From Zooshikella ganghwensis DSM 15267 (lineage in GTDB: Bacteria; Pseudomonadota; Gammaproteobacteria; Pseudomonadales; Zooshikellaceae): 64,000 nt of DNA. The notes below the pieces were generated by a model. The model worked only from the letters and a program-made list of their open reading frames with translations, did no database searches and was not told where the DNA came from. Location of the stretch: contig NZ_AUAF01000001.1 in the NCBI RefSeq assembly GCF_000428585.1, positions 62,001-126,000 of the forward strand, in the 5' to 3' direction. The translations under genes and the position numbers were made by a program. Shown here piece after piece: positions 12,622 to 51,095 of the stretch. Position 1 is the first letter of the stretch; the number at the start of each line of letters is the position of its first letter.

Positions 12622-12623
12622 AA

Positions 12624-12982
<359 letters not shown>

Positions 12983-30881: not shown

Positions 30882-32213
<1,332 letters not shown>

Positions 32214-32343
32214 CTATACCTAAAACGAAGGCTTTTTAGGGGCGGCCGTCAAGCGATGAAGCCTCCAGTAGCTTATATTAATAAGTGACTGGGGTGAAAA
32301 GCGCCGACAACAAACCCTAAAAATGATTCGTGAAGGGTATATG
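32214..32343 (+). repeat. MITE-like dispersed repeat, copy 1 (full length)
   Basis: About 130 bp. The ends are imperfect inverted repeats: the left CTATACC..ACGAA..TTTTTAGGG (32214-32241) matches the complement of the right CCCTAAAAA..TTCGT..GGGTATA (32315-32341). Inside is a hairpin with CCAGT (32265-32269) pairing with ACTGG (32288-32292) and CTTAT pairing with ATAAG, plus the GGGGCGGCCGTCAA block. The left 84 bp recur inverted at 50651-50733 with about 88% identity. No coding potential. It ends about 55 bp before cysZ. Confidence 0.85.
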
Positions 32344-32399: not shown

Positions 32400-33155
32400 A
32401 TGGCTACTATGCAGCAATCCAATCAATCAACGCACTATTTTTTTGCCGGTTTAAAACTAATTTTTCAGCCGGGGATGCGCCGCTTTGTATTTATCCCGCT
32501 TACTCTTAATATCATCCTTTTTTCCGTGATGATTTATTACTCTATTGGCTTTATTGATTCACAAATCAGCAACTTCATAGCTTGGCTACCCGAATTCTTA
32601 AGTTTTCTTAGTTGGCTTATATGGCCTATAGCCTTAATCCTAATGTGTTTGCTGGTATTTTTTTCATTTTCGTTGATAGCTAATTTTATTGCAGCTCCGT
32701 TTAACGGCTTTTTATCAGAAGCGGTGGAGAAACATACTCGCCAACAACAAGGCCTACCAGTATCAGAAACCCCTCTAGACTGGAAAGAGCTGTCTTTGTT
32801 GATTCCTAGAACATTAAGCCGCGAGCTGCGAAAGCTAGGCTACATTGTCCCTCGCTGGCTATTATTAGTAATACTGACGTTTATTCCTGTCATTAACTTT
32901 ATTGCGCCTATTGTCTGGTTGATATGGGGTGCCTGGATGATGGCGGTTCAATATGCCGATTTTCCTGCCGATAATAACAAAGTGCCATTTCCTGCACTTT
33001 TGAACAAACTAAAACAACGTAAAAGTATGACTTATAGCTTTGGCGGGCTTGTCTATTTAATGACGCTTATCCCCTTTGTCAACTTACTCGTTATTCCTGC
33101 AGCCGTTGCCGGAGGAACAATTCTTTGGGTCAATGAAAAGCTCTACGAGCAATAA
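32400..33155 (+). CDS. cysZ: Sulfate transporter CysZ
   Basis: Inner-membrane protein of 251 residues that supports sulfate uptake for cysteine synthesis. Family features seen: the N-terminal FFAGLKLIFQPGMRRFVFIPL, several hydrophobic segments, IAAPFNGFLSEAVE, ELRKLGYIVPRW and the C-terminal YADFPADNNKVPF region. There is no strong ribosome binding site before ATG 32400, and its promoter region is occupied by the dispersed repeat. Confidence 0.93.
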   Translation: MATMQQSNQSTHYFFAGLKLIFQPGMRRFVFIPLTLNIILFSVMIYYSIGFIDSQISNFIAWLPEFLSFLSWLIWPIALILMCLLVFFSFSLIANFIAAPFNGFLSEAVEKHTRQQQGLPVSETPLDWKELSLLIPRTLSRELRKLGYIVPRWLLLVILTFIPVINFIAPIVWLIWGAWMMAVQYADFPADNNKVPFPALLNKLKQRKSMTYSFGGLVYLMTLIPFVNLLVIPAAVAGGTILWVNEKLYEQ

Positions 33156-50323: not shown

Positions 50324-50647
50324 ATGTCTGCAGCAACCCCAAGCAAAAATAAACATGACCAGTCGCCCAGCTCAAAATCACTCTCTACTGAAGACCTCGC
50401 CCGTGTAAATGAGTACTTAAGTTCACCTGTCCACCAAATCGAACGATCACCCTTTAAGCCATTAAAGTTACTTGGCTGGCTTTTGCTGATTATTATTGGG
50501 CTGGGGGTAATCAGTCGTGAGTTAGGTAATTACTTTATGAGTCAGCTTTTTGGCGGATATACCCTTTACGAATCATTTTCAGGGTTTGTTGTCATCGCTC
50601 TTGACTACCAAGGATGGTGGAAATGCAGTTTATGCATGAGCATTTAA
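50324..50647 (+). CDS. Small DUF3094-like inner-membrane protein
   Basis: 107 residues from ATG 50324; an earlier in-frame ATG is at 50306. The core LSTEDLARVNEYLSSPVHQ followed by IERSPFKPLKLLGWLLLI matches my recollection of DUF3094, a short gammaproteobacterial family with an N-terminal EDxxRVxEYL motif and one transmembrane helix (about 47-65). Function unknown. The C-terminal 30 residues go beyond the usual family end. The stop lies 3 nt from the dispersed repeat, which may have changed the original 3' end. Confidence 0.65.
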   Translation: MSAATPSKNKHDQSPSSKSLSTEDLARVNEYLSSPVHQIERSPFKPLKLLGWLLLIIIGLGVISRELGNYFMSQLFGGYTLYESFSGFVVIALDYQGWWKCSLCMSI

Positions 50648-50650
50648 CTG

Positions 50651-50733
50651 TCACTCCAGTCACTTATTAATATAAGCTCCTGGGTCTTCATCATTTGACG
50701 GCCGCCCCTAAAAACCCTTCGTTTTGGGTATAG
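50651..50733 (-). repeat. MITE-like dispersed repeat, copy 2 (truncated, inverted)
   Basis: 83 bp on the minus strand that match 32214-32297 with about 10 differences: CTATACCCAAAACGAAGG, the TTTTTAGGGGCGGCCGTCAA block, and the CTTATATTAATAAGTGACTGG hairpin. The right-hand 45 bp and the second terminal repeat are missing, so this copy is partial. It lies between the DUF3094-like gene and the tRNA cluster. Confidence 0.85.
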
Positions 50734-50856: not shown

Positions 50857-50932
50857 TGGTGGGTCGTGCAGGATTCGAACCTGCGACCAATTGGTTAAAA
50901 GCCAACTGCTCTACCGACTGAGCTAACGACCC
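50857..50932 (-). tRNA. tRNA-Lys (UUU)
   Basis: The minus strand folds as a 76-nt tRNA, GGGTCGT acceptor stem, TAGCTCAGTCGGTAGAGC D arm, anticodon loop CTTTTAA (UUU) and GGTTCGAATCC T arm; the 3' CCA is encoded. Third gene of the Asn-Pro-Lys operon. Confidence 0.97.
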
Positions 50933-50937
50933 AAATA

Positions 50938-51014
50938 TGGTCGGGGTAGAGAGATTCGAACTCCCGACATCCTGCTCCCAAAGCAGGCGCGCTACCAGAC
51001 TGCGCTATACCCCG
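50938..51014 (-). tRNA. tRNA-Pro (UGG)
   Basis: 77 nt on the minus strand with CGGGGTA acceptor, GCGCAGTCTGGTAGCGC D arm, anticodon loop TTTGGGA (UGG), GAGTTCGAATCTC T arm and encoded CCA. Separated by 5 nt from each neighbouring tRNA. Confidence 0.97.
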
Positions 51015-51019
51015 TGATT

Positions 51020-51095
51020 TGGCTCCCCGAGCTGGACTCGAACCAGCGACCCAATGATTAACAGTCATTTGCTCTACCAACTGAGCTATCGGGGA
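51020..51095 (-). tRNA. tRNA-Asn (GUU)
   Basis: 76 nt on the minus strand, TCCCCGA acceptor, TAGCTCAGTTGGTAGAGC D arm, anticodon loop CTGTTAA (GUU), GGTTCGAGTCC T arm and encoded CCA. First gene of the tRNA operon. Confidence 0.97.

Follow-up and report, generated by a model that had tools for sequence, protein, structure and literature searches.

An ERIC-family MITE upstream of cysZ in Zooshikella ganghwensis and its many relatives in Zooshikellaceae

The spacer between trxB and cysZ of Zooshikella ganghwensis DSM 15267 was analyzed within a window, by which we mean the whole stretch of 64,000 nucleotides of DNA studied here. The two genes are divergently oriented and between them lies a short element with inverted ends. 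The features of the locus are listed below.

30882..31859, minus strand: trxB, the divergent neighbour on the other side of the element
32215..32341, plus strand: ERIC-family MITE, 127 bp including both flanking TA, in the same orientation as cysZ
32215..32216, no strand: TA, left copy of the target-site duplication (on the basis of one TA at the Z. harenae empty site)
32215..32240, plus strand: left terminal inverted repeat TATACCTAAAACGAAGGCTTTTTAGG
32258..32297, plus strand: core hairpin GAAGCCTCCAGTAGCTTATATTAATAAGTGACTGGGGTGA, the part in common with E. coli ERIC
32316..32341, minus strand: right terminal inverted repeat TATACCCTTCACGAATCATTTTTAGG
32340..32341, no strand: TA, right copy of the target-site duplication (on the same basis)
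32400..33155, plus strand: cysZ, 58 bp downstream of the element

The initial annotation had placed a MITE-like repeat with imperfect inverted ends at 32214-32343, just upstream of cysZ. The gene was confirmed by a match to NF003433 (E 4e-84). The element is indeed found in that range, but its limits had to be moved in by one base on the left and two on the right, since 32215 and 32341 are the positions where conservation begins and ends in an alignment of copies with their flanks. Within these limits the element reads TATACC...GGGTATA over 127 bp and contains both the GGGGCGGCCGTCAA block and the nested CCAGT..CTTAT/ATAAG..ACTGG hairpin described earlier. The agreement of the ends at 20 of 29 positions was also reproduced: when 29-mers were compared with the reverse complement of the sequence 69 bases further on, 20 matches were reached at only one of 63,873 window positions, which is the cysZ element. 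As RNA, its plus strand forms a fold over the whole length (-48.5 kcal/mol, z -5.9, with none of 200 shuffles as good), and so does its minus strand (-46.3, z -6.8); as DNA, the plus strand folds as well (-22, z -3.75).

The recurrence of the repeat in inverted orientation elsewhere in the window, which had been noticed from the letters alone, corresponds to a second family copy:

50558..50732, minus strand: second family copy, 175 bp, with an empty site in Z. harenae that has one TA
50602..50650, minus strand: internal module of the long variant, ~49 bp (approximate extent)

The length of 175 bp is due to the insertion of the ~49-bp module, which is seen as a gap between two aligned pieces and is carried by other long copies as well.

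When the element was used as a blastn query, the window genome gave 45 match pieces. A search for the end pattern with at most three mismatches returned 279+280 occurrences in this genome against 2+1 for a reversed control, and 141+148, 207+198, 186+176 and 102+107 in four relatives of the family, which are Zooshikella harenae WH53 (G001), of the same genus as the window genome, Spartinivicinus ruber (G004) and two genomes of the genus of the latter (G002 and G003). We then collected 107 elements, most frequently 126 bp long (46), followed by 128 (12) and 127 (8). Removal of other lengths and of identical sequences left 71 distinct copies, with lengths of 123-129 bp (alignment A1), all from Zooshikellaceae and with no ERIC included, from which the covariance model R1 was made. 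R1 matched the cysZ copy at 32215-32341 with 145.8 bits over model positions 1-126, and had at least 150 matches in the window genome and 93, at least 150, 130 and 112 in the four relatives. Among 37 genomes the element was present in five, all of them Zooshikellaceae, and in none of the 32 genomes of the order outside this family. In a wider set of 390 genomes, 11 had matches, namely the five of the family and six of the 385 others with 1-4 stray end matches. A further full-length R1 match was found on a plasmid of Saccharobesus litoralis, between ahpC and ahpF (E 1.2e-20).

In Z. harenae the trxB-cysZ spacer has no element, and the window sequence aligns continuously with it once the element and one TA are taken out, the flank being different at one base, next to the TA. 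A single TA was present at each of three empty sites, two in Z. harenae, at the places of the window copies, and one in G003, at the place of a G002 copy; none of the remaining elements tested had a clean empty site, their flanks being too diverged, absent or rearranged. One copy lies at the same place in G002 and G004, which indicates that some insertions are older. Crude ORF calls, in which some sites are counted twice, put 84 of 85 placeable copies in intergenic positions, with 16 more too close to a stretch end. What the initial annotation had proposed to look for, many copies, target-site duplications and empty sites, was found, and the repeat, correctly noticed there, is a real multi-copy mobile element. 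The earlier proposal that it fills the space of the cysZ promoter stands in part only: the element does occupy this spacer, but as an insertion into an older trxB-cysZ interval that is element-free in Z. harenae. The insertion may have disrupted a cysZ promoter, but TTGAT(A/G) and TATACT, which flank the empty site of Z. harenae, are by our count 19-20 bases apart, outside 16-18. A promoter scan of the empty site and of the element found no promoter-like site.

The central hairpin resembled the sites of the ERIC-PCR primers ERIC1R and ERIC2. The primer letters were matched in 5375 of 5426 E. coli genomes, and the Zooshikella copy itself matches 5375 of 5426 E. coli genomes (blastn with an E limit of 10), with a best E of 1e-6 and 82% identity over positions 33-97. 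E. coli ERIC is printed as 127 nt reading tataccc...gggtata (PMC2759123). The elements of E. coli and Salmonella and those described here have in common the length of 127 nt, the TATACCC...GGGTATA termini, a central CCCCAGGAGCTTA...TAAGTGACTGGGGTGA hairpin, the TA duplication (for ERIC taken from papers), the intergenic location and the many copies. The consensus of the window genome agrees with E. coli ERIC at 7 of 7 positions in each terminus and at 33 of 38 in the core, and differs in the arms, where 35 of 74 positions are identical. Judged by its sequence, the cysZ element is thus a member of the ERIC (IRU, RU-1, MITEEc1) family of MITEs, with the core, a length of ~127 bp with terminal TA, full-length homology, the TA duplication and intergenic placement. 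The initial annotation had stated that it resembles no standard feature, which was wrong, an ERIC having been overlooked. The host is of another family than those in which ERIC is reported, a matter of distribution and not of definition: a review names Enterobacteriaceae and Vibrionaceae (PMC10969869), and here the host belongs to Zooshikellaceae. We also searched 369 genomes of the class for the exact ERIC core pattern, which is strict, so that the five genomes with matches do not map the distribution of ERIC. One of the five was the window's own (43+46); the other four had one match each, which we regard as chance because they are single and have no R1 match beside them.

Many contigs of G003 break either ~50 bases outside the end TATACCCATAACGAATCATTTTTAGG or just inside a repeat begun by TATACCCATAACGAATCATTTTTAGG, and one G003 contig encodes, beside this end, the C-terminal part (140 residues) of a DDE_3 transposase. 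Both the G003 fragment and a longer related protein of Z. harenae (P0001 and P0002) scored above the NCBIfam cut-off for IS630 (NF033545). The end of the G003 IS agrees with the Zooshikella consensus ends at 22 of 26 and 24 of 26 positions, the 24 being with the right end; its left end was not found, one end being seen and the transposase being split over contigs. The match of the ends with the IS630 of a relative makes it likely that an IS630 transposase mobilises the element in trans, and Zooshikella ERICs were probably moved by IS630 transposases. The element, which has no gene of its own, would be excised by an IS630-type (Tc1/mariner-like) transposase supplied in trans, which would bind the ends of ~26 bp and reinsert it at TA. 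Intergenic copies would persist because they do little harm, and a transcribed copy, possibly the one upstream of cysZ, would place a long hairpin in a leader. The suggestion of a non-autonomous transposon, one of three made earlier, is right, as shown by the copy number, the inverted ends, the TA duplication at empty sites and the near-identical IS630 end in a relative. Taken as a whole, the reading of the repeat as an ERIC-family MITE, for which the homology speaks directly, that would be moved in trans by an IS630-type transposase has in our estimate a probability of about 0.93.

The window genome has a more distant IS630 of the same clade (49-50% amino acid identity), with three copies truncated at contig ends; its end agrees with the consensus ends at 19 of 26 and 17 of 26 positions. 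Most DDE_3 transposons of G002 and G004 (for example L126, L127 and L136) were rejected as partners as they have no matching end pair, which only the P0001 clade has. The IS630 of Allochromatium (44-50% identity) was rejected as well, since it starts with TATACCG, without the CCC. Two further loci were observed in the course of this search. In L137 (G003:C126) the N-terminal part of the IS630 transposase is fused to unrelated upstream sequence, with another transposase-like frame downstream, and L122:926-2046 of Z. harenae is a full-length IS630 relative whose transposase lies in two overlapping frames, as it would in an IS expressed by frameshift or in a pseudogene.

We examined the hairpin for covariation. 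Of 30 predicted pairs, 14 change on both sides, and 97.2% of cells are paired. Cells with a double change numbered 79, whereas shuffles had 16.4 and slid controls 3-11, and a tree-based count gave 17 double changes on single branches, 12 of them within the 14 strand-neutral pairs. Such changes may arise without selection, by correction of imperfect palindromes through template switching or conversion between the arms. This would produce double changes on single branches and predicts the strand symmetry that is observed (see below), but it leaves unexplained the unpaired core bases that are conserved, also in E. coli. We regard it as a serious possibility of somewhat less than even odds, and one that is compatible with an ERIC-family MITE moved by IS630.

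It is improbable that the folded transcript is what has been selected, as a riboswitch-like or leader RNA of cysZ. The strong fold over the whole length, the pairs changed on both sides, the cysZ leader direction and the excess of co-directional copies between tandem genes (31 against 16, by crude ORF calls with some sites counted twice) would suit such an RNA. However, the genes beside the copies are unrelated and cysZ of Z. harenae lacks the element, and losses of pairing are symmetric between the strands if the choice of pairs favours neither strand. A first count had suggested a strand-specific function, with 40 changes from Watson-Crick to G-U against 19 to A-C (p 0.009) in the predicted plus-strand structure. 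With pairs taken from the minus-strand structure there were 14 changes to G-U against 24 to A-C, with pairs common to both strands 11 against 14, and with all pairs combined 43 against 29 (p 0.13). We therefore dropped the G-U excess, because the signal follows the choice of pairs, the structure having been picked with plus-strand energies. Neither the element nor three long-variant loci matched Rfam at gathering scores, with one chance match below threshold. Nothing supports a strand-specific structured RNA, and structured RNA, one of the three readings offered earlier, is not supported as the main one even if the pairs covary. We read the hairpin as kept at the level of DNA or of either strand, or as mended by template switching.

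Another alternative is an IS630-type MITE that does not descend from ERIC and has come to a common core by chance or convergence. The low identity of the arms would fit this, and other IS630 relatives also have TATACC-like ends and TA targets. Against it, there is agreement with ERIC in the core, in the two termini of 7 bp and in overall length. In global alignment with the printed E. coli ERIC the family consensus scored 91, against a maximum of 15 in 2000 shuffles (z 12.3), and the window copy 74 against a maximum of 14 (2000 shuffles, z 10.6), so that none of 2000 dinucleotide shuffles reached the alignment score. Moreover R1, made without any ERIC, matched the E. coli ERICs L193 and L194 over model positions 1-126 (E 2.9e-17 and 2.9e-15), and in Saccharobesus there is another copy related over its full length. 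The shuffles and the ERIC-free model largely refute this alternative, which we consider very unlikely. Finally, a REP/BIME, as also suggested initially, here taken to be mobilised by a RAYT (tyrosine transposase), would likewise be palindromic, intergenic and of high copy number, but REPs are described as palindromes of 20-40 bp (PMC3733652) and the size of 127 bp, the TA duplication and the IS630-like ends of the element leave this reading with a negligible probability.

Descent from ERIC with movement by IS630 leaves the poor agreement of the arms to be accounted for. The Z. harenae consensus agrees with E. coli ERIC at 34 of 38 core positions and at 35 of 75 arm positions, for which the alignment is uncertain (Fisher p 6e-6). 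Compared with its sister genus Spartinivicinus, the same consensus agrees at 32 of 40 core positions, a lower share than with E. coli, and at 64 of 74 arm positions, without contrast (p 0.42). The copy of Saccharobesus takes an intermediate position in both core and arms. These contrasts suggest that the arms track the family and its IS630 and that the core and the termini track ERIC at large. What is new is this apparent mosaic, with core and termini like those of E. coli and arms like the local IS, together with the high-copy ERICs of Zooshikellaceae and the one in Saccharobesus. It is tempting, if doubtful, to see ERIC as a two-part element, with a core hairpin that would be under selection across orders of Gammaproteobacteria and arms that would be exchanged to suit the available IS630 transposase. 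If so, the core would do something more than serve mobility, and the extra hairpin modules of both genera would be more swappable parts.

Similar designs occur in other repeats. RUP of Streptococcus pneumoniae differs in having no ERIC core, and we claim no sequence homology with it. No ERIC core is known in the Correia/NEMIS elements of Neisseria, whose 50-bp internal segment binds IHF, and the sequence of BOX, likened here by description, is not known to be related to the Zooshikella element. As described, RUP (107 bp, 108 copies) has IS630-like ends, those of IS630-Spn1, and TA targets, and Correia/NEMIS has TA termini and occurs in short and long forms that differ by the 50-bp segment (PMC2229807), comparable with the forms of 127 and 175 bp found here. 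BOX of S. pneumoniae is reported to have optional or repeated internal modules within fixed ends (PMC3049150). The nearest case is MITEPlu5 of Photorhabdus luminescens, called a relative of ERIC/MITEEc1 and linked to CCC-type IS630 transposons by ends like those of ISPlu3, ISPlu8 and ISPlu19, with TA targets, a strong fold and hundreds of copies, 467 of them complete in TT01 (PMC6267812). It differs in belonging to another host order, is likened here by description, and has 47 copies that differ in presence or absence between strains (PMC6267812). MITEEc1 has also been placed in the IS630 family (PMC11434687). The link between ERIC and IS630 is thus already published for Photorhabdus. A literature search pairing ERIC with Zooshikella, Spartinivicinus or Saccharobesus gave no paper treating both among the matches listed.

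ERIC sequences are the basis of a widely used typing PCR, and a 2007 paper described their transfer mechanism as still not elucidated (PMC2759123). The Zooshikellaceae are marine and lie outside the described hosts, so that ERIC is found here in an unexpected family; each of their genomes has roughly a hundred copies or more, and they also offer clean empty sites and a transposon with almost the same end. They would be a second, independent system for testing the mobilisation of ERIC by IS630, in which so distant a comparison parts the arms, which appear tied to the transposase, from the constant core and termini.

The family also includes longer and shorter forms. Long variants carry modules of ~49 bp or ~60 bp, and one copy has two of the former: this 226-bp copy (L163:524-749, in G003) lies at a place that has no such insertion in G002 and G004. 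The ~60-bp module, of the GCTACCGCAAGTTT...AAACTTGC type, sits within the core hairpin (L109:3398-3633, L101:1989-2175, L034:2546-2734, L035:2631-2819). It occurs in long variants of both Zooshikella and Spartinivicinus, so that the optional modules appear to be older than the split of the genera. There are also short derivatives, 81-83 bp long, in which both ends are retained but most or all of the core is missing (L162:10567-10648, L166:9871-9953, L169:9929-10009). The second copy of the window lies ~125 bases from a tRNA-Lys/Pro/Asn cluster (50857-51095, minus strand), and Rfam places an RNase P RNA elsewhere in the window (12623-12981, minus strand). A long-form copy in L118 (G003:C56:1-1200) appears to have been split by a different insertion element, with a frame that looks like a transposase of the IS4/IS50 type. 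In some places elements or lone ends abut at a common TA (L013 near 1625, L165 near 14687, L154:107-328), as if copies insert beside or into copies.
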